A DNA stretch of 22,896 nt. It comes from a virus. This document shows positions 1,073-22,096 of this stretch, piece after piece (positions within the stretch are counted from its first letter, which is position 1; every line of letters begins with the position of its first letter). The position numbers and the translations under genes are program-made. The notes under the pieces were generated by a model. That model was not told where the DNA came from, did not search any database, and saw only the letters and a program-made list of their open reading frames with translations. Location: positions 1 to 22,896 of the IMG/VR virus record IMGVR_UViG_3300021957_004984; one strand, 5' to 3'.

Positions 1073-1078
1073 GCAGAT

Positions 1079-2352: not shown

Positions 2353-2357
2353 AAAAG

Positions 2358-2365
2358 TATTTATA
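2358..2365 (-). promoter_or_regulatory. Candidate T4-type late promoter for the sulfotransferase
   Basis: Read on the minus strand this is TATAAATA, the exact T4 late -10 consensus, followed by CTTTT and the sulfotransferase ATG at 2352. T4 late transcripts start a few nucleotides after this motif, which would place the 5' end at or next to the ATG. Recognition by a gp55-like sigma factor is inferred, and no such gene is in the window. Confidence 0.55.
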
Positions 2366-2378
2366 TGTTAACTGCGTA

Positions 2379-2386
2379 CATAAATA
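2379..2386 (+). promoter_or_regulatory. Candidate late promoter before the nucleotidyltransferase gene
   Basis: CATAAATA fits the degenerate late motif NATAAATA reported for marine T4-like phages. It is followed by TCAGT and ATG at 2392. It lies back to back with the minus-strand TATAAATA at 2358-2365, separated by only 13 nt. If functional, its transcript would begin at about 2392, which favours 2392 over 2365 as the start of the downstream gene. Confidence 0.45.
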
Positions 2387-2391
2387 TCAGT

Positions 2392-4850: not shown

Positions 4851-5779
4851 TGTTAACTGTTACTTCTTATCTAAAAGGTATTCCGCCCAGAAATAGAAAC
4901 CCAGAAAAACCCGAAGTGTTAATAAACTTTATTAAGGGTGTAAATGCTGTAGGTGATATTGGTAAAGTTGTAGATGGGTGGAAAGTAATTGACAGTGATG
5001 TTGCTGTTGTTCAAGGCTTTGTGCATCCTGGAAGTAAAAATGTAACACACTTAAATTTAAGAAAAAATGTGTTTGATACACAACAAAAAAATAATAAACG
5101 TAGTATTATAATTGATTCTAATTTGTTTTTATATGCTGATCCAGGAAATACTAAAAAATATTTAAGATACAGTTATGACGGTATCTTTCCTACTACTGGC
5201 GAATATTGTAATTCACAACCCACTCTTAATCGCTGGGATCAAATTAGTAAAGATCTTAATTTGTCTTTAAAGCCATGGAGTACTAATAAAGAAACTATTT
5301 TAATTTGTTGTCAACGAGACGGCGGCTGGAGTATGGACGGACAACAACTTATGCCATGGCTTGTAAAAACAATAATGGAAATTAAAAAACATTCAGATAG
5401 AAAAATAGTAGTTAGATTTCATCCAGGTGATCGTAATTCATCTAAGCATAAATCTGCGCTAATTAGATATAATTTACAAAATGTTTTTGTTACATCCAAC
5501 GAGTCAATTCTTACTGATTTTAAAACAGCACATGTAGTAGTAAACTATAATTCAAGTCCGGCAGTTGCAGCAGCAATTGAAGGCATACCAGTATTTGTAT
5601 TAGATTTAGAAAGAAGCCAAGCCAAAGATATTGCTAACACAGATATTAGTAAAATAGAAAATCCAGTACTATACGATAGAAGCGTATGGATACAGAAACT
5701 TGCTCAAATGCACTGGACATCAAATGAGCTTGCAGACGGAACAGCATGGAGGCACCTAAGACAATGGGCGACAAAGTAG
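4850..5779 (+). CDS. Glycan-biosynthesis protein, GT-B-like, paralogue 2
   Basis: A 309-aa protein. Its C-terminal half matches the second domain of the preceding gene product: ILICCQRDGGWSM, then DRKIVVRFHPGD, then VVNYNSSPAVAAAIEGIPVF, then IENP, and the closing DGTAWRHL. The R-F-H-P and N-S-S-P segments look like those of GT-B transferases of the capsule synthesis type, where the H-P and S-S-P loops bind the nucleotide sugar. The N-terminal half (VVQGFVHPG, then IIIDSNLFLYAD) has no motif I recognise. ATG 4850 overlaps the previous TAA (TAATG), and the end overlaps the next gene by 16 nt. Confidence 0.6.
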   Translation: MLTVTSYLKGIPPRNRNPEKPEVLINFIKGVNAVGDIGKVVDGWKVIDSDVAVVQGFVHPGSKNVTHLNLRKNVFDTQQKNNKRSIIIDSNLFLYADPGNTKKYLRYSYDGIFPTTGEYCNSQPTLNRWDQISKDLNLSLKPWSTNKETILICCQRDGGWSMDGQQLMPWLVKTIMEIKKHSDRKIVVRFHPGDRNSSKHKSALIRYNLQNVFVTSNESILTDFKTAHVVVNYNSSPAVAAAIEGIPVFVLDLERSQAKDIANTDISKIENPVLYDRSVWIQKLAQMHWTSNELADGTAWRHLRQWATK

Positions 5780-6654
5780 TAGTATTAACAACGTTTCATA
5801 AAGAAGGTATGGAAGTTTATGGACAAAGATTTTTAGATAGTTTTGCAAATAATGTTGCTAAAGCAATAAAACTAGTAGTATATGCAGAAGACTGTACACC
5901 TGTAAATCCTGATCCTAATCAGATTACTATACTAGACGCAAAAGAATCACTTCCTAAATTAAATAAATTTAAAGAACGCTGGAAAGACGATCCAAAAGCA
6001 AATGGCAAATGTCCATGGCCCGAACGTCGTCCACGAGATTGGCACAAAGAGTTTAAATGGCATGCTATTAGATTTGCAAACAAAACTTATGCTGTATTTG
6101 ACCAATGTCATAAAAGTTACGGAACAGGTAAATGGGTAGTTTGGATGGATGCAGATACCTTTGTACATAGTCCTTGGGCGTATAAAGACTTTATGGATCT
6201 ATTACCAGAAGATCACTGGGCTACATATGTTGGCAGAGGAAAGGGAGTTAATCCGGGTCCAGAAGGAAAAATGGTAGTTAAGAACTGGCCAGAATGTGGA
6301 TTCTATGGTATTAATATGAATCATCCTGTAGGGTGCAGCTTTGTTGAAGAATTTGAACGCATGTATGAAGATGCTGACAACGGTATATTTACATTAGAGG
6401 AATGGCACGATAGTTATGTTTTTGGCAGCATATTATTTGAACTTAAATTAAAATTTCCAAAGGCATTAGATTACACTGCTGAGATTGCAGTAAACAATTT
6501 AGCAAAGTCTGGAGGCGGCGGACATCCTTTAATTAATAGTAAATTAGGAAAATGGATGGACCATATGAAGGGCGATAGAAAGTTTGCTGGATCATCAAAA
6601 AAGAAAGATGTAATGACACACAGAACAGAATCTTATTGGCAAACAGTAAAATGA
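5764..6654 (+). CDS. GT-A-like glycosyltransferase with a D-x-D motif
   Basis: A 296-aa protein. KVVVLTTFHKEG opens a Rossmann-like strand, and WVVWMDADTFVHSP (residues 124-137) supplies the D-A-D metal site typical of GT-A transferases. A later ECGFYGINMNHP and a region with EEWHDSYVF fit the acceptor side of such folds. The start is placed at ATG 5764, before the conserved strand, with GGAGG at 5748-5752 eleven bases upstream inside the previous gene. An in-frame ATG at 5746 is less likely because it would put that site inside the coding region. It overlaps the next gene as ATGA. Sugar specificity is unknown. Confidence 0.7.
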   Translation: MGDKVVVLTTFHKEGMEVYGQRFLDSFANNVAKAIKLVVYAEDCTPVNPDPNQITILDAKESLPKLNKFKERWKDDPKANGKCPWPERRPRDWHKEFKWHAIRFANKTYAVFDQCHKSYGTGKWVVWMDADTFVHSPWAYKDFMDLLPEDHWATYVGRGKGVNPGPEGKMVVKNWPECGFYGINMNHPVGCSFVEEFERMYEDADNGIFTLEEWHDSYVFGSILFELKLKFPKALDYTAEIAVNNLAKSGGGGHPLINSKLGKWMDHMKGDRKFAGSSKKKDVMTHRTESYWQTVK

Positions 6655-7529
6655 TTTTTTGTTTATATACAGACTACGGAGCATTAAATTCTAAGCCTGT
6701 ATTTGAAGCGTTTGCGCAAAGTGTAACTGATGCTGGCCATACTGTAATATATAACGAACCATATAGAGTAATGGATCATTATAGTAATTATGATGTTGCA
6801 GTCATATGGAGTGTTTTGTGGAACGGACGTATGATACATAATAAACAAGTATGGGAGCAAAACCGTAAACTGAATCGACCAGTTATTGTTTTAGAAGTAG
6901 GTGGCATTGAACGCGGAACAACATGGAAGGTAGGATTAAATGGAATCAACAGAGATGCTTACTTTGGTGACAAAGACAATGATAGGACTAGGGCTGATAG
7001 CTTGGGACTGGTTTGTAAGCCTTGGAGATCCAACGGCGATTTTATTCTAGTATGCGGACAGCATGATAAGAGTTTACAGTGGCAAAACATGCCACGTATG
7101 AGTAATTGGTTCTTAAATACATACGATGAAATACGTAAATACACTGAACGCCCAATTGTATTTCGGCCACATCCTCGTTGTAGACTAGAACATATAGAAC
7201 GTGGGCTTAAAAATGTATATAGACAGGAACCACAACATGTTAACGGCACCTATGACGATTTTGATATGGGGTTTAGTAATGTGTGGGCTACTGTCAGTTA
7301 TAGCTCAAATCCAGGGACACACTCTTGTATCAATGGTGTTCCAGCTTTTGTTAGTACCCATAGTCTTGCTTATAGTGTTGGTAATGACATAGACTTTCTT
7401 TACGATATAGAAAATCCGTTAATGCCAGATAGACAACAATGGCTTAATGACTACGCACATACTGAATACACAATTGAAGAAATATCACAAGGTACCCCAC
7501 TTAAACACTTGACAAACCAGTTATTTTAA
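6651..7529 (+). CDS. Glycan-biosynthesis protein, GT-B-like, paralogue 3
   Basis: A 292-aa protein homologous over its C-terminal half to the products at 3168-4850 and 4850-5779. Shared landmarks are FILVCGQHD, then ERPIVFRPHPRC, then VSYSSNPGTHSCINGVPAF, then IENPL, and a closing QGTPLKHL. The N-terminal half (MIFCLYTDYG, then VIVLEVGG) is Rossmann-like. The ATG overlaps the preceding stop (ATGA); a TTG in frame at 6636 was not used. The -35 box of the next promoter is encoded inside its last codons, so that promoter is intragenic. It may be a nucleotide-sugar-dependent transferase. Confidence 0.6.
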   Translation: MIFCLYTDYGALNSKPVFEAFAQSVTDAGHTVIYNEPYRVMDHYSNYDVAVIWSVLWNGRMIHNKQVWEQNRKLNRPVIVLEVGGIERGTTWKVGLNGINRDAYFGDKDNDRTRADSLGLVCKPWRSNGDFILVCGQHDKSLQWQNMPRMSNWFLNTYDEIRKYTERPIVFRPHPRCRLEHIERGLKNVYRQEPQHVNGTYDDFDMGFSNVWATVSYSSNPGTHSCINGVPAFVSTHSLAYSVGNDIDFLYDIENPLMPDRQQWLNDYAHTEYTIEEISQGTPLKHLTNQLF

Positions 7530-7543: not shown

Positions 7544-8716
7544 ATGATTAACGTAACTACCATTGAAGATTTACTCGAATGTTCTGCTAACCTGCGGAAA
7601 GCACCTGCTATAAAACTTGATGCTTCTGACATGACTATTATGCATAGTATTGCTAGACAAGTATTTAAAGGTACAGCACTTACAGATAGACAGTTTGCTT
7701 TGATGCAAGAAAAATTAAAGTCATATAAAGATCAGTTTATAAATTTAGAAATTAATTTTGACTATGCAATTAGTGAATTACGGCAACCGTTGCGTGAGAT
7801 TGACCGTAGTAAATTTATTAAAATTATAGATAAAAAAATTGTAGTTAGATTTCCATTTAGAAAAACTGATATTATATCAATTAATAGATGTGCAGCAATT
7901 AATAATGACGAATCTAATTATCATCATAAAAAAGGATCGCATCAACACGAATTTGGCTATACTGAACTAAATGTTTTTAATTTACTTACTGAATTTAAAG
8001 ATAGAGATTTTGTAATTGACTGTGAACTATTAGAAGTATACCAAGACATTAAGAATATAAAGTTATCTCCCCAAGAGCATGTGCCTGGCATTTTTAATGA
8101 ATCGGCTACTAGTATCAATGTTAGCAATAAATTAAAAACTATCATTGATGAAGAAATTAATAACGATCCTATAAAATTAATTGACAGGAAATTTAGATAC
8201 GGACTAACTGACTTTGTTAAACGTGATGCTAAAACGTTAACACAAGAAATTGCATACAGACAAGATATCTACGTACACTGCCGTCCAGACGATGTAAGGC
8301 TAAATGATTTGTTAACTAGTTTATTTGAACTTGATAGATTTCCAATGCTAGTAATATTAGATAAAGAACAAGCAGAAGACCAATTACATTCTATGATTAC
8401 GTATTATAGAGATATTATCGACCCACACGAACAGAGTGTTTTATTTAGACTGGAAGATAAAAATGCAGGATTTAATCAATTAATTAAAGATAGAAAATTA
8501 AACAATTGGGTTGACAAGTCAACAAAAATAGTGTATATTAGTAAAGATAAGTTACCCAAATTACTAATTAATCATTGGAAACCGCAAACTGCGTTTTCTT
8601 TTAGTAGTAGTTTAGATCGTATAGTTAATACGTATATACGTTTTAACTGTGATTTAGTTGTTTGGAGAGAAGACACTATATCACCGTTTAGGAGGCATTC
8701 AGTACTGTATGACTAG
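7544..8716 (+). CDS. Unrecognised 390-aa protein upstream of uvsW
   Basis: A 390-aa soluble protein with no motif I recognise. It is Lys/Asp/Ile-rich with alternating strands and helices, including KKIVVRFPFRKTDIISI at about 92-108, a His-rich loop (HHKKGSHQHEFGY) near 127-139, and a later IYVHCRPDDVRL. It has no signal peptide or membrane segment and lacks Walker motifs. It is first in the operon that includes UvsW and overlaps it by 8 nt, which suggests a replication or recombination role, but this is context only. It has a strong promoter 6 nt before its ATG and no Shine-Dalgarno. Confidence 0.75.
   Translation: MINVTTIEDLLECSANLRKAPAIKLDASDMTIMHSIARQVFKGTALTDRQFALMQEKLKSYKDQFINLEINFDYAISELRQPLREIDRSKFIKIIDKKIVVRFPFRKTDIISINRCAAINNDESNYHHKKGSHQHEFGYTELNVFNLLTEFKDRDFVIDCELLEVYQDIKNIKLSPQEHVPGIFNESATSINVSNKLKTIIDEEINNDPIKLIDRKFRYGLTDFVKRDAKTLTQEIAYRQDIYVHCRPDDVRLNDLLTSLFELDRFPMLVILDKEQAEDQLHSMITYYRDIIDPHEQSVLFRLEDKNAGFNQLIKDRKLNNWVDKSTKIVYISKDKLPKLLINHWKPQTAFSFSSSLDRIVNTYIRFNCDLVVWREDTISPFRRHSVLYD
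8511..8539 (+). promoter_or_regulatory. Possible internal sigma-70-like promoter before uvsW
   Basis: TTGACA (8511-8516), a 17-bp spacer, then TATATT (8534-8539), one mismatch from the consensus -10, inside the 390-aa gene and about 170 bp before the uvsW start. It could boost uvsW, but an AT-rich coding sequence can produce such a match by chance. Confidence 0.3.
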
Positions 8717-10172
8717 TTGTAAATTAATAATTGAAGATGAAGTAAATATCAAACTAGAAGGACTTGATGTTGATGTTCGCCGTAAACTTGCAAATGCTCT
8801 TAAGTTTGAAGTGCCATATGCAAAGTATATGCCACAGTACAAACTAGGACGCTGGGATGGTAAAGTTGCATTTTTTGGTATCGGCGGCACTGGCTACGTT
8901 AATCACCTTGATGTTGTTAGCCAAGTACTTGAAAAAAACAATGTACAAATAGTAGATATTGAAGATCGACGTCATCCAATTAAATTAGAATTTCAACCAG
9001 TGACAGAAAGATATTGGGCCGACCAAGGGGTTGTATGGCCAAAAGGTCATCCAGCAGAAGGCGAAGATATTATTCTGCGAGATTACCAAGTTGAAGCAAT
9101 CAACAACTTTATTGCTAATCCACAGAGTCTCCAGCAAATTGCTACAGGCGCAGGTAAGACAATCACAACGGCTACGTTATCACATCTCAGTGAACCTTAC
9201 GGGCGTAGCTTAGTTATTGTGCCTAATAAAAGTCTAGTAGAGCAAACTGAAGAAGACTATATTAACTGTGGGTTGGATGTAGGGGTGTACTTCGGAGACA
9301 GAAAGAACTTGGGTAAGACTCACACTATTTGCACTTGGCAGAGTTTAAACATTCTGGACAAGAAGCACAAGGATGGATCAGCAGTGTTATCACTTGCTGA
9401 GTTCCTAGAAGGTGTGAGCACGATCATTGTTGACGAAGTACACCAAGCCAAAGCAGAGGTTCTTAAGAACTTGCTTACTCGCAACCTACGCAACGCTCCG
9501 ATCCGATGGGGTCTAACTGGCACTGTGCCTAAAGAGAAGTTTGAATTCGAAAGTATACATGCTAGTCTAGGTCCTGTTATTGGTCAAATCAGTGCTAAGG
9601 AACTACAGGATAAAGGTGTATTATCACAGTGTCACGTCAACGTAGTACAATTAATTGATACAGTAGGACATGCAGGTTATCAAGAAGAATTAAAATATCT
9701 TGTTACAAATAAGGATAGGATTGAATACATAGGCAAATTATTAAACACAATAAAAGACACAGGCAATACCCTAATACTAGTAGACAGAATCTCCGCAGGA
9801 GAAATGTTAGCAGAACTAATACCCAATAGTACTTTCATTAGTGGAAGTGTTAAAGTAAAAGACCGTAAGGAAACATATGATACAATTAGAGAAGGTACCA
9901 ATGAAGTCATTATCGCAACATATGGAGTTGCGGCAGTAGGACTTAATATACCTAGAATTTTTAATCTTGTACTTATTGAACCTGGAAAGTCTTTTGTTCG
10001 GGTAATCCAATCTATTGGTAGAGGCGTAAGAAAGGCAAAAGACAAAGACTTCGTACAAATATGGGATCTTACATCAACATGTAAGTTCGCGAAGCGACAT
10101 CTGACCCAACGTAAGAAATTTTACAAAGAAGCAGAGTACCCATTTACAATAGAAAAAGTGGAATGGAATTAA
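8709..10172 (+). CDS. uvsW: UvsW-type superfamily 2 DNA/RNA helicase
   Basis: A 487-aa helicase close to the 503 aa of T4 UvsW. The N-terminal domain contains PQYKLGRWDGKV (42-53), the region equivalent to the T4 R-Y-G-N-W-D-G-R segment. Walker A is ATGAGKT (145-151), motif II is DEVH (242-245), motif III is LTGT (269-272), and motif VI is QSIGRGVRKA (434-443). UvsW unwinds branched structures and R-loops and helps the switch from origin to recombination-dependent replication. ATG 8709 is chosen because the conserved N-terminus starts there, and AGGAGG lies at 8690-8695, although the 13-nt gap is long. A TTG at 8658 is possible but unneeded. Its end overlaps the next ATG (TAATG). Confidence 0.95.
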   Translation: MTSCKLIIEDEVNIKLEGLDVDVRRKLANALKFEVPYAKYMPQYKLGRWDGKVAFFGIGGTGYVNHLDVVSQVLEKNNVQIVDIEDRRHPIKLEFQPVTERYWADQGVVWPKGHPAEGEDIILRDYQVEAINNFIANPQSLQQIATGAGKTITTATLSHLSEPYGRSLVIVPNKSLVEQTEEDYINCGLDVGVYFGDRKNLGKTHTICTWQSLNILDKKHKDGSAVLSLAEFLEGVSTIIVDEVHQAKAEVLKNLLTRNLRNAPIRWGLTGTVPKEKFEFESIHASLGPVIGQISAKELQDKGVLSQCHVNVVQLIDTVGHAGYQEELKYLVTNKDRIEYIGKLLNTIKDTGNTLILVDRISAGEMLAELIPNSTFISGSVKVKDRKETYDTIREGTNEVIIATYGVAAVGLNIPRIFNLVLIEPGKSFVRVIQSIGRGVRKAKDKDFVQIWDLTSTCKFAKRHLTQRKKFYKEAEYPFTIEKVEWN

Positions 10173-10678
10173 TGAGAATATTAACCTTAGAAAATCAATG
10201 CTTCAATTTAGACGAACTACCAGATACAATAGAAGACGATGTACGCTTTAGTGTACTTGATAACAGTGATCCAAAAAACCCTGATTTCTTTTTTGTGCCT
10301 TTGATCTTTTTAGAATCATTTAGTTCTCCAGCAATGGTATTAGAAATTGGCGGCAAAGAAATTACAATGCCAGTTGATTGGAGTATTGCTGTAGGCTGTT
10401 CAGAAAGCGGCAATGATCTAGAAATACTACCCTTAACAAGTATTAATGATAGAGGATTTGAAGCATTCATATTTAATCCGTTATCGAGTTTTAAACCTAA
10501 CTTTGCAGATATTAATATTGTAAATTTTTATACAGATGTAAAATGGTATTTTCCAAAACTAAAAAACGGACAATTATTAAGTGTACCAATAGGCGACGGA
10601 CATAAGCCTGATTGTGCGTTTTTTGTAAAAGATATTAGCAGACAATGCGAAGTTATAGAATACAGTCTATTGATGTAA
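10172..10678 (+). CDS. Conserved hypothetical protein of marine T4-like phages
   Basis: A 168-aa protein with no enzyme motif. Landmarks are ENQCFNLDELP near the start, DFFFVPLIFLESF, MPVDWSIAVG, DRGFEAFIFNPLSSF and the end segment CAFFVKDISRQCEV. I recall similar unnamed proteins next to uvsW in marine T4-like phages. The sequence is acidic and strand-rich with no signal peptide. ATG 10172 overlaps the uvsW stop (TAATG) and is preferred over an in-frame ATG at 10163. Confidence 0.8.
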   Translation: MRILTLENQCFNLDELPDTIEDDVRFSVLDNSDPKNPDFFFVPLIFLESFSSPAMVLEIGGKEITMPVDWSIAVGCSESGNDLEILPLTSINDRGFEAFIFNPLSSFKPNFADINIVNFYTDVKWYFPKLKNGQLLSVPIGDGHKPDCAFFVKDISRQCEVIEYSLLM

Positions 10679-10926
10679 TGATACCAGGCGAGACACTAAT
10701 ATACGAGCGAGTAGACGGAGTTGTCTATGCTCGCTATCGAGATATGCCTGATATTGATCGTTGGATTGTTGGAGGAGATCCGGGAGGAATGGCTAGAGCA
10801 CAAGGTGATTTATTTGACTACAGTGAATGGCAAAACTTGTGTAAATTGGCAAAAACAAATACTACTCTTAAAAAATTAATGGATAAGTTAGTAACAACTT
10901 ATTACATTGTAAAGGAAGAAAAATGA
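10678..10926 (+). CDS. Small conserved phage protein, 82 aa
   Basis: An 82-aa protein, MIPGETLIYERVDGVVYARY at the N-terminus and LVTTYYIVKEEK at the C-terminus. It looks like a compact alpha/beta protein with a C-terminal helix plus strand, and I recall near-identical openings in unnamed cyanophage proteins. The ATG overlaps the previous TAA (TAATG). An in-frame ATG at 10645 inside the previous gene was rejected. The function is unknown; it sits between two other conserved small genes and kdsA. Confidence 0.75.
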   Translation: MIPGETLIYERVDGVVYARYRDMPDIDRWIVGGDPGGMARAQGDLFDYSEWQNLCKLAKTNTTLKKLMDKLVTTYYIVKEEK

Positions 10927-11699
10927 GAATTATAGCAGGACCCTGCCAACATGAATCACTACAGCAAAGTTTAGAGATTGCAAAAGAATGCAAACGTGTA
11001 TGCGACAAGTATGATATTGATTATTACTTTAAAGCAAGTTATGACAAAGCTAATCGAAGTAGTTTACAGGGAGTGCGCGGCCTCGGAATAAATGCAACAC
11101 TTAACCACTTCCTAGAACTAAAAGTAGAACTAGGTGTAAAAACACTTACTGATGTTCATGATCATGTACAAGTTGCACGTATTGAAAGAGAATTTAAATA
11201 TGCAGTTGATGTCTATCAGATTCCTGCATTCTTGTGTAGACAAACTGATCTACTAAAAGCAGTATGTGCTACAGATAAAATTGTTAATATTAAAAAAGGA
11301 CAGTTTCTAGCACCCTGGGACATGAAAGGCATTTTGTCTAAAACCGATGGTGCTAAGGAAGTTTGGATCACTGAGCGAGGAACTAGTTTTGGATACAACA
11401 ACTTGGTTGTTGATTTTACCGGCATTGATTATATGCTTTCTACTTTTGATTGCCCTGTGGTTTTTGATGCCACACACAGCGTACAGAAGCCGGGTGGCCT
11501 TGGAGGTAGTAGCGGCGGCAATAGGGATTACGTTCCTGGTTTACTTCGCGCGGCAAGTGCTTTGGGTGTTAGAGACTTCTTTATAGAGACACACCCTGAC
11601 CCAGATAACGCACCCAGCGACGGACCAAATATGTTACGCTTAGACGACTTTGAAAAGGTTGTTAAAGATATTATTGCAATTAGAAAGGCAGTAGAATGA
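10923..11699 (+). CDS. kdsA: 3-deoxy-8-phosphooctulonate (Kdo-8-P) synthase, metal-dependent type
   Basis: A 258-aa KdsA, slightly shorter than bacterial enzymes (about 270-285). It condenses phosphoenolpyruvate with arabinose 5-phosphate to give Kdo 8-phosphate. Visible signatures are IAGPCQHES, FKASYDKANRSS (37-47), LCRQTDLL, VNIKKGQFLAPWDMK (121-135), ERGTSFGYNNLVVD (151-164), FDATHSV (181-187), ETHPDPD and SDGPN. The metal ligands of the Aquifex-type enzyme are all present: Cys8, His185, Glu222 and Asp233. Escherichia coli, which uses the metal-free type, has Asn at the Cys position. It overlaps its neighbours at both ends, and kdsB follows 160 nt later after a 53-aa gene. No kdsD or kdsC is in the window, so arabinose 5-phosphate and dephosphorylation must come from the host or other phage genes. 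Confidence 0.95.
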   Translation: MRIIAGPCQHESLQQSLEIAKECKRVCDKYDIDYYFKASYDKANRSSLQGVRGLGINATLNHFLELKVELGVKTLTDVHDHVQVARIEREFKYAVDVYQIPAFLCRQTDLLKAVCATDKIVNIKKGQFLAPWDMKGILSKTDGAKEVWITERGTSFGYNNLVVDFTGIDYMLSTFDCPVVFDATHSVQKPGGLGGSSGGNRDYVPGLLRAASALGVRDFFIETHPDPDNAPSDGPNMLRLDDFEKVVKDIIAIRKAVE

Positions 11700-11857
11700 A
11701 AAAAGAGAAGTCTCCGTATATGGAAATTATTAATCGCGAATGTAAAAAAGATGGCAAAGGCCGTTTTAAGACATTAGATGTATTACGTGTATCTAGACGA
11801 TTATATGATGAGCAGCAAGAACTTATCAATTTGATTGCAACACGGACACGTAAGTAG
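11696..11857 (+). CDS. Small basic protein, 53 aa, between kdsA and kdsB
   Basis: This short frame was found by eye. It encodes MKKEKSPYMEIINRECKKDG followed by KGRFKTLDVLRVSRRLYDEQ and a tail ending in TRTRK. It is rich in Lys and Arg, helical and has no membrane segment. Its ATG overlaps the kdsA stop as ATGA, and the kdsB ATG follows its stop by 1 nt, so it fits exactly into the operon. The tight fit argues for a real gene; the function is unknown, possibly nucleic-acid binding by charge. Confidence 0.7.
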   Translation: MKKEKSPYMEIINRECKKDGKGRFKTLDVLRVSRRLYDEQQELINLIATRTRK

Positions 11858-11858
11858 A

Positions 11859-12542
11859 ATGAAGAAAACAGCAATACTAATTCCAGCACGTTACGCAAGC
11901 ACACGCCTGCCTGGAAAGCCTTTAATACAGTTAGATGGCGTTCCTATGATAAAACGTGTGTATGACGCTTGTGTTGCGTCTAAGATACCAACATACGTGC
12001 TTACTGATGACGATCGTATTGCTGATAAATTTGATCCAGAACATGTATTGTTAGATTCGGCAAAATACGAAAACGGTACAGAAAGATGCGCAGGCGCAAT
12101 TAAGAATGCAAGGTTTGACAAGTACGATCAGTTTATAAACGTACAAGGCGACATGCCAGATGTAACATCTGATATAATTGAAAAATGCCAGTGGCACTTA
12201 CTAAACTATTCTGTAACAACAGTGTTTACAGACATGCCTAAAGATAAACAAAATGATCCTAATTCAGTCAAGATGGTACGTGGAGCCGATCAAGCATTAT
12301 GGTTTGGCAGAGGCATGACTGGATATGGAGAATGGCACTTGGGTGTTTACGGGTACAAGCGTAATGCATTAGAAATGTATAGTAACTTAGAAGTAACACA
12401 AGAAGAACAAGTAGAGAAACTAGAACAACTCCGATGGTTAAAAAACGGTTGGCAAATTGGTTGTTTGAGTGTATACTATAATGGAGTAGAAATAAATTCT
12501 CCAGAGGATGTAGAAGAATGGCACAGCAAGCATTTCCAGTAA
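11859..12542 (+). CDS. kdsB: CMP-Kdo synthetase (3-deoxy-manno-octulosonate cytidylyltransferase)
   Basis: A 227-aa protein, somewhat shorter than E. coli KdsB (248). It forms CMP-Kdo from CTP and Kdo. The N-terminal nucleotide loop is IPARYASTRLPGKPL (8-22). NGTERCAG (72-79) matches the S-G-T-E-R-x-A segment, and INVQGDMPDV (93-102) carries the catalytic Asp of V-Q-G-D-E-P. The usual Glu there is Met. HLGVYGYKRNALE, LEQLRWLKNG and INSPEDVEEW follow, the last keeping the C-terminal metal-binding Asp (217). The shortened middle loop accounts for the length. The ATG follows the previous stop by 1 nt; an upstream in-frame start at 11835 was not used. Confidence 0.93.
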   Translation: MKKTAILIPARYASTRLPGKPLIQLDGVPMIKRVYDACVASKIPTYVLTDDDRIADKFDPEHVLLDSAKYENGTERCAGAIKNARFDKYDQFINVQGDMPDVTSDIIEKCQWHLLNYSVTTVFTDMPKDKQNDPNSVKMVRGADQALWFGRGMTGYGEWHLGVYGYKRNALEMYSNLEVTQEEQVEKLEQLRWLKNGWQIGCLSVYYNGVEINSPEDVEEWHSKHFQ

Positions 12543-12976
12543 AAGATGTACTAGCATGTTTAGACAGCAATGCTAAAGGTGTTTGGGACGAACTTACAGA
12601 CGAACAGAAAAAAGGTGTAAACTTTTGGCTGTTAAATAGATATGCAAGTTCGGTTGCAGGTAGCAGAGAAGCACAAGAACTTGCTGTTGTTATGACTAAT
12701 CAAATCTATAATAAAAACTGGAATGAGCTAGGAGCACGACATCCTAAACTACAATGGCAGTTGCTATGTTCTTTACATAACGCAAATAGTGACATAAGAC
12801 GACATGTATGGATTGGCTTTAAGAAAAAGTCAGGCGATAATAGCAAAGGTGTAAAACTGCTAGAAAAAATATATCCTAATATGAAACAAGACGAGGTAGA
12901 ATTACTTGCTAGATTATCTACAAAAAAAGAACTCAAAGAGTTGGCTAAAGAATATGACATCGATGTCAAACTCTGA
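12518..12976 (+). CDS. Conserved phage protein, possible gp62-type clamp-loader subunit
   Basis: A 152-aa helical protein starting MAQQAFPVKDVLACLD. Landmarks are FWLLNRYASS, HPKLQWQLLCSL, a middle W-I-G-F-K-K-K, YPNMKQDEVELLARL and a C-terminal KELKELAKEYDI. I recall close relatives in marine T4-like phages. The order of an N-x-x-L/I-S segment, a central L-L, a K-x-x-x-W-I-G-like part and a C-terminal LSxxELxxL helix is loosely reminiscent of gp62, the small clamp-loader subunit, but the match is weak. gp44 and gp45 are not in the window. It overlaps kdsB by 25 nt. Confidence 0.7.
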   Translation: MAQQAFPVKDVLACLDSNAKGVWDELTDEQKKGVNFWLLNRYASSVAGSREAQELAVVMTNQIYNKNWNELGARHPKLQWQLLCSLHNANSDIRRHVWIGFKKKSGDNSKGVKLLEKIYPNMKQDEVELLARLSTKKELKELAKEYDIDVKL

Positions 12977-13652
12977 AAAGCCATATAAGTGTGAATACTG
13001 CGGCAATGGGTATATGAGAGAGAAAACATTAGCCGCGCATATGTGTGAGCCAAAAAGACGATGGCTCCAAAAAGATGAAAAAAGAGTGAGGTACGGTTTA
13101 TATGCATTCCAAAGATTCTACACCCTCTCAGCAGGGAACAAAAAAGAAAAAACGTATGAAGATTTTGTCGGGTCACCCTATTATAATGCTTTTGTTAAGT
13201 TTGGCTCCTTTATTAGCAATGTGCGTCCTTTATATCCTGAAAAATATATTGACTACGTTGTAACTAGTGGAGTTAAATTAGATCACTGGGCCAGAGACGA
13301 ATTATATGAAAAGTATGTATTAGAGTTCATACTTAAAGAAGATGTGACTACAGCATTAGAAAGAAGTGTTAAAACAATGATGGAATGGGCAGAAGACAAA
13401 AGTGCTCCGTGGAATCATTATTTCCATCATGTAAGTCTTAACAAAGCAGTATGGGATATTAAAGACGGAAAAATATCTCCGTGGTTGATGCTTAATTGTA
13501 AGAGCGGTAAAGAGATGCTAAGTAAGTTTACTGACGAGCAGCTCGGACTTGTATATCATGTTATTAATCCACAACATTGGGCTATGCGCTTTAAAAGACT
13601 TCCAAATGATATGCAGTTAGTTAAAGATATAGCAAAGGAATCAAAGTTATGA
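12954..13652 (+). CDS. Zinc-finger phage protein of unknown function
   Basis: A 232-aa protein with an N-terminal C2HC-type finger: YKCEYCGNGY with Cys13 and Cys16, then EKTLAAHMCEPKRRW with His29 and Cys31. The rest is helical, with SPYYNAFVKFGSF, LDHWARDELYEKYVLEF and INPQHWAMRFKRL. I recall long relatives of this architecture in cyanophages, unnamed. The finger suggests nucleic-acid binding, for example a regulator or endonuclease partner (inference). The start is uncertain: ATG 12954 or 12963, both just before the finger and both inside the previous gene. The stop overlaps the next ATG. Confidence 0.8.
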   Translation: MTSMSNSEKPYKCEYCGNGYMREKTLAAHMCEPKRRWLQKDEKRVRYGLYAFQRFYTLSAGNKKEKTYEDFVGSPYYNAFVKFGSFISNVRPLYPEKYIDYVVTSGVKLDHWARDELYEKYVLEFILKEDVTTALERSVKTMMEWAEDKSAPWNHYFHHVSLNKAVWDIKDGKISPWLMLNCKSGKEMLSKFTDEQLGLVYHVINPQHWAMRFKRLPNDMQLVKDIAKESKL

Positions 13653-14005: not shown

Positions 14006-14503
14006 ATGGAGTTAGTATATTATCCAGATCCTATTCTAAGTAAAGAATTACAAGATGTAAATATTGAAGAACCACAGTTTGATCCTTTGCGTCTAAAAAA
14101 AGACATGGCTGTAGCTATGTTGTTAAATAACGGCATAGGACTTACAGCATCACAAGTTGGTTTAGACTATAAAGTGTTTACCATGGGCGACAAAGCCGAA
14201 AATGTTACTTTACATATTAACCCAACTGTGTTACAATATACTGAAGAAGTTAATACAGAGCTTGAAGGTTGTTTAAGTTTTCCAGGAATGTTTGTAAAAG
14301 TAAAACGTCCGGCTGAAATACTTGCAGAATATTATGACGAGTTTCTTAAAAAACAAACAGTTAAAATTACAGGATATAGTGCTAGAGTTTATCTACACGA
14401 ATTAGATCATTGTTTGGGTATTACTATGAAAGATAGATGTAGTAAAATAAAATGGGATATGGCAAAGAAAAAAGCACGTAAGATGGAGAAGAGAGTTGCC
14501 TGA
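14006..14503 (+). CDS. def: Peptide deformylase
   Basis: A 165-aa phage-type deformylase with all three catalytic motifs. GIGLTASQVG (43-52) matches G-x-G-L-A-A-x-Q, EGCLSF (87-92) carries the metal Cys89, and HELDH (131-135) gives His131, Glu132 and His135. It removes the formyl group from nascent proteins. Deformylases are known from marine phages, where they are thought to support host organelle or bacterial translation during infection. A GAGGAAA ribosome site lies about 9 nt before the ATG. The last 8 nt overlap the next gene. All catalytic residues are present. Confidence 0.95.
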   Translation: MELVYYPDPILSKELQDVNIEEPQFDPLRLKKDMAVAMLLNNGIGLTASQVGLDYKVFTMGDKAENVTLHINPTVLQYTEEVNTELEGCLSFPGMFVKVKRPAEILAEYYDEFLKKQTVKITGYSARVYLHELDHCLGITMKDRCSKIKWDMAKKKARKMEKRVA

Positions 14504-15056
14504 TATTGATATAGATTTTGCTGATCGAGATGTAATACTATCTAAACTTACACATCGTGTGGCAAAATTAAACACAGGCAAAAAACATAATACTGGAGTA
14601 TATGCTACTGAGATTCCACACAACCCAGTAGATAATCTAAGTACTATCGAACACAAGACAGCTGACGAACGTGGCTATTTTAAATTAGATTTTTTAAATG
14701 TAAGTATATACAAAGATGTTACAAATGAAGAACATCTTCAACGACTAATGACTAAGGAACCACAATGGGCACTCCTCGAACACGACGATTTCAGCAGTCT
14801 AGTATTTCACGTCGCAGGACATGGAACTATATTAAAGACAATGCGTCCGAGAACAATAGAACAATTAGCAGCAGTACTAGCAATGATACGTCCAGCCAAG
14901 CGACACTTAGTTGGAGAAACTTGGGAAACAGTGATGAAGGAAGTTTGGATAAAACCAACGGACAATAGTTATTACTTTAAGAAAGCCCATGCAGTGAGCT
15001 ATGCAATGGCTGTTGTAGTGCATATGAACTTAATATGCGATAAAATTAGTTCTTAG
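14496..15056 (+). CDS. Miniature DnaE-like (DNA polymerase III alpha) protein
   Basis: A 186-aa protein that keeps the landmark motifs of C-family polymerases in the right order but compressed. PDIDIDFADRD (2-12) matches the catalytic D-x-D segment. KHNTGVY (30-36) matches H-A-A-G-V-V-I. KLDFLNV (63-69) matches K-F-D-F-L-G-L with the third catalytic Asp at 65. TIEQLAAVLAMIRPAKR (120-136) matches the L-A-A-x-x-A-L-x-R-P-G-P segment. FKKAHAVSYAMA (161-172) matches F-K-S-H-A-A-A-Y-A. The PHP, thumb and beta-binding parts of the usual 1,100-1,200 aa enzyme are absent. The start is TTG 14496 with GGAG at 14485-14488. Recalled relatives occur in T4-like cyanophages. Whether it synthesises DNA is unknown. 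The end overlaps a convergent gene by 11 nt. Confidence 0.8.
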   Translation: MPDIDIDFADRDVILSKLTHRVAKLNTGKKHNTGVYATEIPHNPVDNLSTIEHKTADERGYFKLDFLNVSIYKDVTNEEHLQRLMTKEPQWALLEHDDFSSLVFHVAGHGTILKTMRPRTIEQLAAVLAMIRPAKRHLVGETWETVMKEVWIKPTDNSYYFKKAHAVSYAMAVVVHMNLICDKISS

Positions 15057-15417
15057 GTTTACGTACTAGTTGTACACTACGCCTTTTTATTCGTTTGACT
15101 GTTAGATTATTTAAATTTACACAAGGCCCTAGTGTTACTCTAACATCTTTACTATTCATAGTAATAATAGAATATTTAAAAATGTCCATTTCCTTCTTTA
15201 GAAAGATGTTGATAGGTATCAAACGATTTGATTCCCACCACCATACATCACCTAACTCTAAAAACTTTAGTTCGTCTTCTTTAGTTTTTAAATCAGTATA
15301 CACGTACATACTTGTAACAGTGGCGTCTTGATTTATAATAATCCCGATATATTCGTTGCCGCCATAAGTTACAACGCTTAGAAAGGGAAAATTTTCTTGT
15401 ATGTCTTGTGTTAACAT
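15046..15417 (-). CDS. Conserved phage protein of unknown function, 123 aa
   Basis: A 123-aa strand-rich protein with SVVTYGGNEYIGIIINQDAT, TSMYVYTDL, ELGDVWWWESNRLIPINIFL and a C-terminal KRIKRRSVQLVRKP. I recall similar proteins, including the W-W-W-E-x-N-R-x-I-P-I-N-I run, in marine T4-like phages. The basic C-terminus would suit nucleic-acid or host-protein contact. It is convergent with the DnaE-like gene and divergent from the virion-type gene at 15438, which starts 20 nt away on the other strand. No clear sigma-70 or late motif was seen before its ATG. Confidence 0.85.
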   Translation of the reverse strand: MLTQDIQENFPFLSVVTYGGNEYIGIIINQDATVTSMYVYTDLKTKEDELKFLELGDVWWWESNRLIPINIFLKKEMDIFKYSIITMNSKDVRVTLGPCVNLNNLTVKRIKRRSVQLVRKPKN

Positions 15418-16258: not shown

Positions 16259-17248
16259 ATGAGTGTAGTAAGCGAAACAGTTCTGACATACTTACCTTCT
16301 AAGAGAAAAACAACTCCTAGTGGCTGGCTATCATTCAATGCGCCCTGCTGTCATCATAACGGACATGCTACTGATAATAGAGGCAGAGGAGGACTTATAG
16401 ATAACGCAGACGGAGGCATGAGCTATCACTGTTTTAACTGCGGATTTAAAGCTTCTTGGCAACCAGGGCGCAACTTCTCATATAAACTGCGAAGGCTCCT
16501 GCAATGGATGGGAGCGCCTGACGATATAATCAATAAGGTGGCACTTGAAGTAATGAGAGAGAACGAAGGTGTGCAAGCAAAAGAACGCATTGCTGAACTA
16601 CCTTCGTTCAATACAGTTCCGTTACCAGACGATGCAATTAAAGTTGCTGATATTACAGATTTCAACAAATATAGTTTGGCTATATTAGAGTATATGGCAC
16701 AACGTAGACTAAATCTAGATGACACAGATTATTACTGGTCGCCGAGTCTAGGATATCGTGATAGATTAATTATACCATTTTATTATGAAGGTAACATAGT
16801 AGGATGGACTGGTCGTAGTATACTTGAAGATAAAAAGCCTAAGTACTTAACAGAAGTACAGCCTGGGTTTGTGTACGGCTTAGATGATCAAACATATAAT
16901 AAAGTATTTGCTATTGTATGCGAAGGCCAGATTGATGCTATACATATAGAAGGATGTGCGTTAGGAGGTAGTGAAATAAGTGATCAGCAATCTATGCTAC
17001 TAAATAGATTACAGAAAGATATTATTGTAGTGCCTGATAGAGATAAAGCAGGAAGCAAACTAGTTGAACGTGCTATTGAATTAGGCTGGCACGTTAGTTT
17101 ACCAACTTGGCCTGATGACATTAATGACATCGGCGATGCCGTCGATAAGTATGGTAGGCTGTATACGCTACACAGTATAGCAAGTGAAGCTACAGATAGC
17201 GCACTTAAAATTAGATTAAAAGCAAAAAAATGGTTTGGGAGTAACTAA
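16259..17248 (+). CDS. 61: gp61-type DNA primase
   Basis: A 329-aa T4-like primase that lays RNA primers for the lagging strand with the gp41 helicase. An N-terminal zinc-binding region has Cys30, Cys31 and His residues up to 36, then YHCFNCGFKASW with Cys58 and Cys61. A central LIIPFYYEGNIVGWTGRS segment follows. A Toprim-like fold has IVCEGQIDAI (Glu222) and VVPDRDKAG (Asp260, Asp262). T4 gp61 is 342 aa, so the length fits. It starts with no Shine-Dalgarno, 6 nt after a consensus -10. Its stop overlaps the next ATG (TAATG). Confidence 0.93.
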   Translation: MSVVSETVLTYLPSKRKTTPSGWLSFNAPCCHHNGHATDNRGRGGLIDNADGGMSYHCFNCGFKASWQPGRNFSYKLRRLLQWMGAPDDIINKVALEVMRENEGVQAKERIAELPSFNTVPLPDDAIKVADITDFNKYSLAILEYMAQRRLNLDDTDYYWSPSLGYRDRLIIPFYYEGNIVGWTGRSILEDKKPKYLTEVQPGFVYGLDDQTYNKVFAIVCEGQIDAIHIEGCALGGSEISDQQSMLLNRLQKDIIVVPDRDKAGSKLVERAIELGWHVSLPTWPDDINDIGDAVDKYGRLYTLHSIASEATDSALKIRLKAKKWFGSN

Positions 17249-17382
17249 TGAAAACAATTAAAAAGGTATTAAAGTTTGTGTGGTCTATTATTACATGGCC
17301 GTATAGAAAGATTAAAGAAGAAATTAAATTCCGCAAACGTATGAAAGAATTACGGGAAAAGGACCCGTTCATTTACAAATGA
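17248..17382 (+). CDS. Small basic phage protein, 44 aa
   Basis: This short frame was found by eye between primase and carbamoyltransferase. It reads MKTIKKVLKFVWSIITWPYR, then KIKEEIKFRKRMKELREKDP and FIYK. An amphipathic, possibly membrane-associated N-terminal helix is followed by a charged helix. I recall marine T4-like phage proteins with the same W-P-Y-R and D-P-F-I-Y-K ends. Its ATG overlaps the primase stop (TAATG) and its stop overlaps the next ATG (ATGA), which strongly supports translation. The function is unknown. Confidence 0.78.
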   Translation: MKTIKKVLKFVWSIITWPYRKIKEEIKFRKRMKELREKDPFIYK

Positions 17383-18338
17383 TTATCTGGGGATTAGTTG
17401 GCAACAGCCACGATGCTAGTTTAGCAGTATTTAATAATGAAGAATTGTTATGGGCAGCACTTGCTAAAGATTTTAGCGGAGTGCCCAACGATCCTCACCT
17501 AAATAAAAAACTAATTAAAAAAGCACTTAAATTTGGGGCACCAAAAGAAATTATTTGGTACGAACGTCCTTTCTTAAAAACTATTAGACAATGGCGAGCT
17601 GGGCAAGGCTGGCTAGGCAAAGAAAACAATATAGCTTCATATCTTTATGAACACAATATTGTTCGTCCAATACAGTACACCCAACATCATCATTCACATG
17701 CAGCTTATGCGTACTACACACAGCCACATGATAATTGTGCAGTTATTTGCTTAGATAGCATTGGTGAATTTGAAACACTAACCATATGGCATGGGAAGAA
17801 CAATAAACTAAAAAAGATATACAGTCAAGGCTATCCACATAGCCCAGGTTTATTTTACTCTGCAATGACACAACGTGTTGGTGGCGTTGCACAAAGAGAC
17901 GAGTACATGATTGCAGGCATGGGTAAAGACCATAACCCTGAGTACTATAGAAGTGCAATGATGGACGAGCTTATACTAAAAATGCCTACAGCCAGTAACC
18001 CGTCCTGGAAGTTTAAGACTAATTTACATCGAGGGTGCAATTGGTTTTTGCCTGAAGCTACGGATAATGAAGCCATGGGTAAACTTGCAGCAACTACCCA
18101 ACAGGTTTTTGAAGAAGCTGTCCAAGGCCTTAGTACATGGGCTCTATGGAAAACTAAAAGCCCTAACTTAGCACTAGCAGGCGGCGGCGCACTTAATCGC
18201 CAGGCTGTAGATAAAATACGGTCACATTGGAATAATATACACGTACCCCGAAACCCTGGAGACCCTGGTAGCTGTATTGGCGCTGTTTTAGCAAAAACAA
18301 AAACAAAAGTAGACCTAGAAGGAAAGTGGGTTGAATAA
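17379..18338 (+). CDS. Carbamoyltransferase, Kae1-like domain only
   Basis: A 319-aa member of the NodU/CmcH/TobZ carbamoyltransferase family. It has GLVGNSHDASLAVF near the start, the metal/substrate motif HHHSHAAYAYY (103-113), AVICLDSIGE, PGLFYSAMTQ and LALAGGGALNRQA. These belong to the N-terminal Kae1-like (ASKHA) domain. Family members are usually about 550-600 aa and have a second, YrdC-like domain that makes carbamoyl-adenylate. That part is absent here, and the frame closes cleanly 44 nt before the next ATG. The protein may use a host-made carbamoyl-AMP, or act in another way. The substrate may be a sugar in the nearby glycan pathway (inference). Confidence 0.85.
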   Translation: MIIWGLVGNSHDASLAVFNNEELLWAALAKDFSGVPNDPHLNKKLIKKALKFGAPKEIIWYERPFLKTIRQWRAGQGWLGKENNIASYLYEHNIVRPIQYTQHHHSHAAYAYYTQPHDNCAVICLDSIGEFETLTIWHGKNNKLKKIYSQGYPHSPGLFYSAMTQRVGGVAQRDEYMIAGMGKDHNPEYYRSAMMDELILKMPTASNPSWKFKTNLHRGCNWFLPEATDNEAMGKLAATTQQVFEEAVQGLSTWALWKTKSPNLALAGGGALNRQAVDKIRSHWNNIHVPRNPGDPGSCIGAVLAKTKTKVDLEGKWVE

Positions 18339-18382: not shown

Positions 18383-19804
18383 ATGACTAGACAAAATACA
18401 GATTACGGATATGATATACAAAAAGTATATCTAGAAATGTTTATGACAGACGCAGAAAGTTTTGTGCGCTGTCAAGCAGTGTTTGATCCTGAAGCGTTTG
18501 ATAGACGCTTACAGGAGGGTGCTAAGTTCTTAACTGATTACGTTAGCGAACACAATGCACTTCCAACAATGGACATGTTAAACGCCGCTACTAAAGCAGA
18601 TCTAAAAGATCCAGGGCAACTACAAGAAAATCATTATGATTGGTTGTTACAAGAGTTTGAAACGTTCAGTAAGCACAAAGCATTAGAGGCAGCAATTCTT
18701 AAAAGTGCAGACTTGCTAGAGTCTGGCGACTATGGACAGTGTGAAGACTTAGTTAAGAAGGCTGTACAGATAGGCTTACAAAAAGACTTAGGTACAGACT
18801 ATTATGCTGATCCAAGAGCTAGACTAGAAGGCATTAAAAGTACAAACGGACAGGTAAGCACAGGCTGGCCAGCTATGGATAAGAAATTGTTTGGCGGCTT
18901 TAACAGAGGCGAGCTTAACATCTTTGCAGGTGGTTCGGGTGCAGGTAAGAGTTTGTTTCTTGCCAACATTGGTGTTAACATGGCCGAGAAAGGCTTGAAC
19001 GTAGTTTACTTGACACTAGAGCTTGCAGAGAGTTTAGTTAGTATGAGACTTGATAGTATGACTACAGGTATTCCAAGTCGTGATGTGTTTAAGAGCATTG
19101 ACGATGTTGAAATGAAAGTTAAGATTATTGGCAAGAAGAACGGTGCATTCCAAGTCAAGTATATGCCTAGTGGCAAGACAGCAAATGATGTACGCAGTTA
19201 CATTAAAGAATATGAGATTAAAACAGGCAAGAAGGTAGACGTACTACTGATTGACTACTTGGATCTGTTGATGCCAGCAAGCACAAAGGTAAGCGCAGAG
19301 AACTTGTTTATCAAAGACAAGTACGTATCGGAAGAGCTACGTAACCTAGCAATGGAATTGAACACAGTATTTGTTACAGCGGCACAGTTGAATCGTGGTG
19401 CTGTGGAAGAGATTGAATTTGATCACTCGCACATCAGTGGTGGCTTGAGTAAGATTCAAACAGCAGATAACGTGTTTGGTATCTTTACAAGTAGAGCTAT
19501 GCGTGAACGCGGACGCTATCAGCTACAGCTAATGAAGACACGTAACTCAAGTGGAGTAGGACAAAAGATTGATCTAGGCTTTGATTTAGATACTCTTCGA
19601 ATTATTGATATTGGTGATGAAGATGAGCAATCAACAGCACCACAAGGAGGTGCTAGTGCTATTGCTGCTGCGCTCAAACGTACAAATGTTGTATCAACAG
19701 TTTCAGATGTTCCTAGTGAAGGAACTACAGCACCTAAAGTTAAAGAACAAACAGACTCTACTAAACTACGACAATTCTTAAATAATTTACCCGGTGACGA
19801 ATAA
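18383..19804 (+). CDS. 41: gp41-type replicative DNA helicase
   Basis: A 473-aa DnaB-like helicase, equal in length to T4 gp41 (475). The N-terminal helical domain (1 to about 140) precedes a RecA-like domain. Walker A is GSGAGKS (184-190), the strand after it NVVYLTLE, Walker B VDVLLIDYLDLL (285-296), then VFVTAAQLNRG and a C-terminal QLQLMKTRNSS with the Arg finger region. It unwinds duplex ahead of the fork and recruits gp61 primase. The C-terminus is a Ser/Thr/Pro-rich linker ending RQFLNNLPG, a likely partner-binding tail. It is transcribed from its own promoter, 5 nt before the ATG. Confidence 0.95.
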   Translation: MTRQNTDYGYDIQKVYLEMFMTDAESFVRCQAVFDPEAFDRRLQEGAKFLTDYVSEHNALPTMDMLNAATKADLKDPGQLQENHYDWLLQEFETFSKHKALEAAILKSADLLESGDYGQCEDLVKKAVQIGLQKDLGTDYYADPRARLEGIKSTNGQVSTGWPAMDKKLFGGFNRGELNIFAGGSGAGKSLFLANIGVNMAEKGLNVVYLTLELAESLVSMRLDSMTTGIPSRDVFKSIDDVEMKVKIIGKKNGAFQVKYMPSGKTANDVRSYIKEYEIKTGKKVDVLLIDYLDLLMPASTKVSAENLFIKDKYVSEELRNLAMELNTVFVTAAQLNRGAVEEIEFDHSHISGGLSKIQTADNVFGIFTSRAMRERGRYQLQLMKTRNSSGVGQKIDLGFDLDTLRIIDIGDEDEQSTAPQGGASAIAAALKRTNVVSTVSDVPSEGTTAPKVKEQTDSTKLRQFLNNLPGDE

Positions 19805-20542: not shown

Positions 20543-22096
20543 ATGATCGGAAGACTAGCTGCAGTTGACTTGGATGCTGTATCTACAGCAACTAGTATAT
20601 ACAGATGTAGAACTACAGGATATGCAGCGGTTAGCTTAACTGTATGTAACAGAGGCACATCGTCTGCTAACATTACAATAAGCATAAGCGACACAGTTAA
20701 TGCAACAGACTTAGCTGGAACAATAGAATTCCAATATTCAATACCTGCCAAGGACGTTCTAGAACGCACGGGCATAGTGGTTGGTTCTACACAATACCTT
20801 ACAATTACATCATCATCAACAGACATTAGTATTATAGCAATGGGTGCCGAAACAGGCGAGTTTGATTCAGATATTGCAGATATCCCACTTCCGGTTTTTG
20901 AATGGAGTCAAACATATGGCTTTGACAATCCTAATGATTATTCTGGCGCCAGCGACGATGAATTCGGTAAAAGTATTGCTATAGGAAACAACTATATGGT
21001 AGCTGGTGCAGACTTTGAAGACGATGCAGGCGGTAGTGCTTCAGGTAAAGCCTATGTGTACAGCACATCAACTGGCGCACTCACATACACATTGGACAAT
21101 CCAAATGGCCATGATACTACAGCAGGTGACAGATATGGTTTTGCCGTTGCTGTTAGTGACAACCATATTGTAGTTAGCGCACCATACGAAGACGATTCAA
21201 ACGGTACTTCACAGGGTAAGGTATATGTGTATAATCCAAGCACGGGCGGATTAACCCGCACTATCGACAATCCAAGCAGCAGTTACCTGCGTGGTGATCA
21301 ATTTGGTTGGGCTCTTGCTATAGACAGTGACACGCTACTGGTTGGTGCGCATTGGTACGCAGATTATGATGGCCGGGCTTATCTTATCAATGCCAGTACA
21401 GGCAGTGTACTACACACACTGGAAAATCCCAATAGTTATGACGAACTTGGCACCGACAATGATACCTTTGGAGAAAGCGTGGCCATACACGGCAACTTGT
21501 GTATTGTTGGTGCACCTCATGAAGACAAAGCAGGCAGCGGTACATCAGGCAGTCGCGTGGGAGCAGCCTACATTTTTAATGTAAGCACAGGCGCAACTGA
21601 ACACACACTACTAAATCCAGATCCAGACAATGATGCAGAAAATGATCAATTTGGCGAAAGTGTAGCTATACACGGCAGCTATGCAGCAGTTGGAGCTCCG
21701 GGCGAAGGATCCACTCCCGAGGGAGGATATGTATACATATACAACACTTCAACAGGAGCACTTGTACAATCAATAGCTGCACCTTCAGGTGCAGACAGCT
21801 GGTCAATTGGACGCCTAAGATCGTTAGCCATGAACGCAGACTACGTATTCATGGGCGATTATGGAGCAACAATCGACGGTGAATTCGGCCAAGGCAAAGT
21901 GTATGTGTACCGTATTTCAACAGGCGCACTTGTACACACTATAGTAAATCCTCAAACAGCAAGTGGAGTCAACAACAGTCAATACTTTGGCAGTGCTGTT
22001 GCAGCTGTGGGCAACAGAATTGCTGTAGCTGAAGAACGACATAGAGTAGGCGGCGCGAACTTCGCAGGCAAAGCACACATCTACGACCTCGACTAG
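20543..22096 (+). CDS. FG-GAP beta-propeller protein with a virion-type N-terminal domain
   Basis: A 517-aa protein. Residues 1 to about 115 (GRLAAVDLDAVSTATSIYR, then EFQYSIPAKDVLERTGIVV) resemble small tail-associated domains of marine phages. From about 125 there are seven FG-GAP-like repeats of about 50-58 residues, each with D-x-F-G-x-x-x-A, then V-G-A, G-K-x-Y-V-Y, S-T-G-x-x-x-x-T and N-P. The seventh ends in G-K-A-H-I-Y-D, with the first strand supplied by the segment before repeat 1, as in a closed seven-blade propeller. Repeats 1, 2 and 4 have D/E-rich calcium-type loops. Integrin-like propellers bind ligands, so this is a candidate receptor-binding or virion adhesin. The DNA here looks richer in G and C and in repeated codons than its neighbours. 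A late promoter and AAAAGGAT precede it. Confidence 0.88.
   Translation: MIGRLAAVDLDAVSTATSIYRCRTTGYAAVSLTVCNRGTSSANITISISDTVNATDLAGTIEFQYSIPAKDVLERTGIVVGSTQYLTITSSSTDISIIAMGAETGEFDSDIADIPLPVFEWSQTYGFDNPNDYSGASDDEFGKSIAIGNNYMVAGADFEDDAGGSASGKAYVYSTSTGALTYTLDNPNGHDTTAGDRYGFAVAVSDNHIVVSAPYEDDSNGTSQGKVYVYNPSTGGLTRTIDNPSSSYLRGDQFGWALAIDSDTLLVGAHWYADYDGRAYLINASTGSVLHTLENPNSYDELGTDNDTFGESVAIHGNLCIVGAPHEDKAGSGTSGSRVGAAYIFNVSTGATEHTLLNPDPDNDAENDQFGESVAIHGSYAAVGAPGEGSTPEGGYVYIYNTSTGALVQSIAAPSGADSWSIGRLRSLAMNADYVFMGDYGATIDGEFGQGKVYVYRISTGALVHTIVNPQTASGVNNSQYFGSAVAAVGNRIAVAEERHRVGGANFAGKAHIYDLD

Follow-up and report, generated by a model that had tools for sequence, protein, structure and literature searches.

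We identified, in a 22,896-nucleotide stretch of DNA from an uncultured and probably marine virus (hereafter the window), a 186-amino-acid protein that is probably one of two subunits, the C-terminal half, of a much pared-down DnaE-type Pol III α; this enzyme would most likely act as an accessory polymerase beside a family-B replicase. The open reading frame is a real gene, and its product (half B) is a heavily reduced but true relative of DnaE that retains the active-site residues. Its putative partner (half A), encoded by a distant gene in related phages, ends at a conserved junction; the two halves co-occur in large genomes and both are under purifying selection.

Half B is a reduced relative of Pol III α

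The half-B gene is open throughout from a TTG start, and its product is a full-length match to the family PHROG 11778 (E = 2.3e-60; residues 3–184 of 186 on profile positions 8–195 of 197). Its KAHA region also gives a match to PHROG 405, a family of full-length phage DnaE proteins (E = 9.2e-6). A phmmer search of the PDB with the single half-B protein gave no match, and the sole Pfam match to half B alone was a sub-threshold hit to DNA_pol3_finger. The relation to PDB sequences became visible only with a 99-sequence profile, for which Pol III α ranked first (5lew, E = 1.3e-4), with matching segments collinear at the DxD, KMDFL, fingers and KSHA sites. A profile search against DnaE had been suggested in an earlier note on this DNA, made from the sequence alone, and it did recover a family relation: the half-B family profile (178 rows) scored 81.7 (E = 2.8e-10) against a profile of 11 aligned DnaE proteins, whereas column-shuffled controls (n = 40) reached at most 24.3, so the half-B landmarks exceed chance. 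The fold might have proved unrelated, an outcome that the same note had allowed for; instead, when an AlphaFold2 model built from the 99-sequence alignment (pLDDT 93, pTM 0.82) was compared with the PDB using Foldseek, the top 16 matches were all Pol III α (best, 4iqj, probability 1.00, TMq 0.47). These are partial superpositions (TMq 0.30–0.47, rmsd 5–10 Å), and the next match had a probability of 0.02. Among predicted viral structures, the named top matches were DnaE-type polymerases. Taken together, the profiles, the invariant catalytic set and the predicted fold indicate that half B is related to Pol III α and to nothing else. A frame error or a truncated dnaE as its origin is ruled out by the family-wide conservation of its ends.

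All five DnaE landmarks noticed earlier are present and follow the order of DnaE: PDIDIDF (residues 2–8), KKHNTGVY (29–36), FKLDFLNV (62–69), AMIRPAKR (129–136) and FKKAHAVSYA (161–170). The three catalytic aspartates are likewise in place, but the pair had been misnumbered as Asp5 and Asp7. Residues D401 and D403 of E. coli DnaE, the first two aspartates of P-D-F-D-V-D-F, correspond to Asp3 and Asp5, and Asp7 corresponds to D405; the third, Asp65, had been correctly assigned and is equivalent to D555. The remaining equivalences are H511 with His31, K553 with Lys63, R639 with Arg132, K758 with Lys163, H760 with His165 and Y764 with Tyr169. Across 104 diverse representatives of the half-B family, Asp3, Asp5, Asp7, His31, Lys63, Asp65, Arg132 and His165 are invariant, and these include all three catalytic aspartates of the C-family (Asp3, Asp5 and Asp65). 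Because the D405 position is Asp in all DnaE groups and Asn in PolC (PMC3919608), the retained Asp7 places half B with DnaE and not with PolC. H760 is a proposed steric gate against ribonucleotides (PMC8485763), and the invariance of its equivalent, His165, argues at the sequence level for a deoxynucleotide substrate.

A second gene encodes the other half of the palm

Half B is devoid of the GS motif (R362, G363 and S364 in E. coli DnaE), that is, of the nucleotide-binding half of the Pol-β-like palm. When related complete phages were scanned with the Pfam profile DNA_pol3_alpha, each proved to carry a second small gene that matches the profile from about position 20 to 95 and then stops. This half A (PHROG 11127, E from 6e-37 to 3.5e-87) is about 170–185 amino acids long, carries a GxGRGS motif and matches PF07733 positions 16–95 (E from 1e-8 to 5e-12). 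Its profile scored 84.1 against DnaE (shuffled controls, at most 21.2), and the match ends at E. coli residue 393, where half A finishes with x-E-F-L-x; half B begins at 399. In every half-A ORF examined (86/86), 35–36 amino acids separate the start of GxGRGS from the end of the protein, so that A and B meet at a single DnaE position. The earlier suggestion of a minimal C-family polymerase or nucleotidyltransferase thus holds for the kind of protein, as judged from profiles, invariant residues and fold; it fails for a complete enzyme, because the palm half with the GS motif is a separate protein. Two other phage families, PHROGs 13169 (463 amino acids) and 7513 (461 amino acids), match half A in their C-terminal part; they possibly end near the same DnaE site and may be further DnaE splits that have kept the PHP domain.

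We searched 30 related records. All 12 of those of at least 180 kb encode both halves, far apart, together with a family-B polymerase (PF00136); records shorter than 180 kb are fragments with one half each. The phage polymerase that the earlier note proposed as a possible partner of half B may be this family-B enzyme. The 22.9-kb window is itself a genome fragment in which half A is absent, so we infer that its phage encodes half A elsewhere in the genome. No half-A relatives of the Rhizobium-phage type were found in IMG/VR. In 121Q, half A lies near genes for the clamp loader and a GroES-like protein; in Phosso, its neighbourhood includes GroES and AAA-ATPase genes. A DnaQ-like proofreader was rejected as an obligatory partner, because a DnaQ-type exonuclease (PF00929) is encoded in only 5 of the 12 large genomes.

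Purifying selection acts on both proteins (median dN/dS of 0.115 for half B and 0.15 for half A), and the window's half B differs from its nearest relative by a dN of 0.018 and a dS of 0.171. Across the 12 genomes, divergence in A tracks divergence in B (Mantel r = 0.77, p = 2e-4), which indicates co-inheritance, is not by itself proof of contact and may only reflect shared phage ancestry. Modelled alone from a shallow alignment, half A reached an overall pLDDT of 55, falling below 50 exactly over the GS segment; this is in line with folding only in the presence of half B, and the shallow alignment would explain it equally well. Cyanobacterial DnaE is also encoded by two separate genes and involves a split intein. 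By contrast, the phage A and B ORFs stop and start at the junction and contain no intein sequence, so covalent rejoining is not expected and we rejected split-intein joining.

The two halves correspond to a palm with part of the fingers

Together, A and B (about 370 amino acids) correspond to the palm of Pol III plus a portion of its fingers, covering E. coli DnaE from about 281–393, 399–406, 511–560, 605–643 and 755–780, as judged from alignments and landmark positions. They share with bacterial DnaE (E. coli; T. aquaticus, 4iqj/2hpi) the palm and fingers landmarks, the three catalytic aspartates and the equivalents of D405, K553, H511, R639 and H760, but the bacterial enzyme is a single chain of 1160 amino acids, undivided at the point between E. 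coli 393 and 399 where the phage version is split. Absent are the PHP domain, the thumb, the central fingers (about 644–754) and everything beyond about 780, which comprises the HhH/clamp-binding, OB and tau-binding regions; the thumb (about 430–510) is replaced by about 22 residues. PHP and (HhH)2 domains are near universal in C-family polymerases (PMC3919608), yet neither half matches them, and the two chains are too fully taken up by matched DnaE segments to accommodate either.

Fourteen residues are invariant in all 11 DnaE proteins compared (R362, G363, S364, R390, D401, D403, D405, H511, K553, D555, R639, P640, R709 and H760). The phage pair loses two of them: R390 is replaced by an invariant Glu, and R709 is deleted. 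Both arginines presumably contact the triphosphate in the T. aquaticus ternary complex, so triphosphate binding by A and B would have to differ from that of DnaE. We speculate that their place may be taken by Lys135 and Lys162, both invariant in half B.

Half B lies in a conserved replication block

The window's half B sits in a T4-like block of replication genes, in the order UvsW, several small genes, half B, a convergent small gene, a structural gene, primase and DnaB (Table 1), as in 121Q and RaK2. This synteny is kept from marine contigs to 121Q, RaK2, Paride and Atu_ph07. Relatives of half B start at the same position with ATG, GTG or TTG, and the overlap with the peptide deformylase gene makes translational coupling possible. 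A small gene lies in the same place and orientation as the convergent one in all five phages examined (121Q, RaK2, Paride, Phosso and Atu_ph07). Inside the replication block, a DAHP/KDO-8-phosphate-synthase-type gene is followed by a KdsB-like cytidylyltransferase gene, suggesting phage-encoded CMP-sugar synthesis. Other genes of the window, including a block of surface-sugar genes and four genes whose annotation gives no function (PHROGs 11058, 11758, 11279 and 11637), are placed in Table 1.

Table 1. Features of the window (+, strand shown; −, complementary strand)
Feature	Position	Strand	Basis or remark
Surface-sugar gene block: family 25 glycosyltransferase, FkbM methyltransferase, sulfotransferase, further glycosyltransferase-like genes, cytidylyltransferase fused to mannose-phosphate isomerase cupin	359-7529
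UvsW-type helicase	8658-10172	+	PHROG 16; upstream in conserved block; same order in 121Q and RaK2
No annotated function	10163-10678		PHROG 11279
DAHP/KDO-8-phosphate-synthase-type gene	10923-11699
KdsB-like cytidylyltransferase	11835-12542
No annotated function	12518-12976		PHROG 11758
No annotated function	12906-13652		PHROG 11058
Peptide deformylase, overlapping half-B start	14006-14503	+	PF01327, E = 6.8e-35
GGAG, Shine-Dalgarno-like, 7 nt 5' of TTG	14485-14488	+	sequence; relatives share start position
Half B, probable C-terminal half of split minimal Pol III α	14496-15056	+	PHROG 11778; profiles, AlphaFold2 fold, invariant residues
Codons Asp3 (D401), Ile4, Asp5 (D403), catalytic pair	14502-14510	+	Asp invariant, 104 representatives
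Codon Asp7 (D405)	14514-14516	+	invariant, 104 representatives
Codons Lys63 (K553), Leu64, Asp65 (D555, third catalytic Asp)	14682-14690	+	DnaE alignment
R132-P133-A-K135, matching DnaE fingers segment R639-P640	14889-14900	+	R, P and K invariant
FKKAHAVSYA, matching DnaE FNKSHSAAYA; His165 (H760, proposed steric gate) invariant	14976-15005	+	alignment
Small convergent gene, overlapping half-B 3' end; no annotated function	15046-15417	−	PHROG 11637; conserved
DNA primase, conserved replication block	16259-17248	+	PHROG 47
Carbamoyltransferase N-terminal domain, between primase and helicase genes	17379-18338		PF02543
DnaB-like replicative helicase, conserved replication block	18383-19804	+	PF03796 / PHROG 19
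FG-GAP repeat protein, 517 aa; possibly surface or fibre protein	20543-22096

Alternative readings and a proposed mechanism

DnaE resemblance in phages that own a family-B replicase could point to a decoy or inhibitor that mimics the active site of host Pol III without catalysis, as the earlier note had also envisaged. We regard this as highly improbable: the catalytic Asp, Lys and His are invariant in 104 diverse members although a decoy could do without them, catalytic residues are under purifying selection in both halves, the PHP, clamp-binding and tau-binding regions of DnaE are absent, and the catalytic site is split between two genes that lie far apart. That the halves are decaying, functionless fragments of a captured host dnaE, as their short length and the division of the gene might suggest, is scarcely credible, given that they exist in hundreds of copies, that their low dN/dS values contradict decay, and that both the junction and the synteny from marine contigs to cultured-phage genomes such as 121Q are conserved.

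A nucleotidyltransferase that is not a template-directed DNA polymerase, working by untemplated addition, by tagging an end or a protein, or with some other polynucleotide, would fit the deletion of the thumb, the loss of two arginines that DnaE keeps without exception among the 11 compared, and a lineage that already has a family-B replicase. We nevertheless think it unlikely, because the invariance of the steric-gate His implies that deoxy sugars are selected, the template/fingers segment (VFxx...RP) has been retained, and both genes lie in replication neighbourhoods. We also give a low, though not negligible, probability to a bolder proposal, in which A and B are a Pol III core, lacking the thumb and depleted of arginines, that no longer serves template-directed replication and has become a two-component dNTP transferase requiring expression of both distant genes, or else represent an early stage of the bacterial replicase that preceded the PHP and clamp-binding domains.

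Under the reading that we favour, a two-subunit accessory polymerase, half A would supply the first half of the Pol-β-like palm with the GxGRGS nucleotide-binding motif, and half B would supply the Asp3/Asp5 strand, the Lys63/Asp65 strand and shortened fingers with Arg132 and the steric-gate His165. Non-covalent docking of the two proteins would create a single active site in which a primer is extended with dNTPs through two-metal catalysis: A's GS motif would position the triphosphate, B's aspartate triad would bind the two metals, and His165 would exclude ribose. Since neither a thumb nor a clamp-binding region is present, the enzyme should be distributive and suited to short patches, and its simplest role would be gap filling, primer extension or repair next to the family-B replicase.

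Relation to known phage polymerases

A split minimal Pol III catalytic subunit has already been described in group 2.2 jumbo phages (Iyer et al. 2021, Viruses 13:63, PMC7824862). In the part of that paper devoted to it, the enzyme consists of two proteins from distant genes, an N-terminal NTP-binding part and a C-terminal metal- and template-binding part, with no other Pol III domains, and the phage also encodes a family-B polymerase; half B matches the C-terminal part, the only one in the window fragment. Relative to that part of the account, our analysis adds an uncultured, probably marine member, the loss of the thumb, the retained steric gate and the two lost DnaE-invariant arginines. The window's half B is about 50% identical to its nearest counterparts among isolates and 67–97% identical to IMG/VR matches. 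PHROG 11778 and PHROG 11127 hold the same families over their full length (for example 121Q gp16 / gp56 and RaK2 ORF124), annotated separately as 'DNA polymerase' or hypothetical, with no statement that they are complementary halves. In the openly licensed literature, we found no later biochemistry (activity or binding) on split phage Pol III.

With the map of kept and lost residues, the 2021 split-polymerase prediction can be put to a direct test using just two small proteins. Should A and B assemble and be active, they would form a very small C-family polymerase, of about 370 amino acids compared with about 1,100, in which two gene products each contribute part of the active site and which coexists with a family-B replicase encoded by the same phages. 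Such an enzyme would show which parts of Pol III chemistry alone needs, and would be relevant to the published idea that these phage versions resemble the ancestral bacterial replicase.
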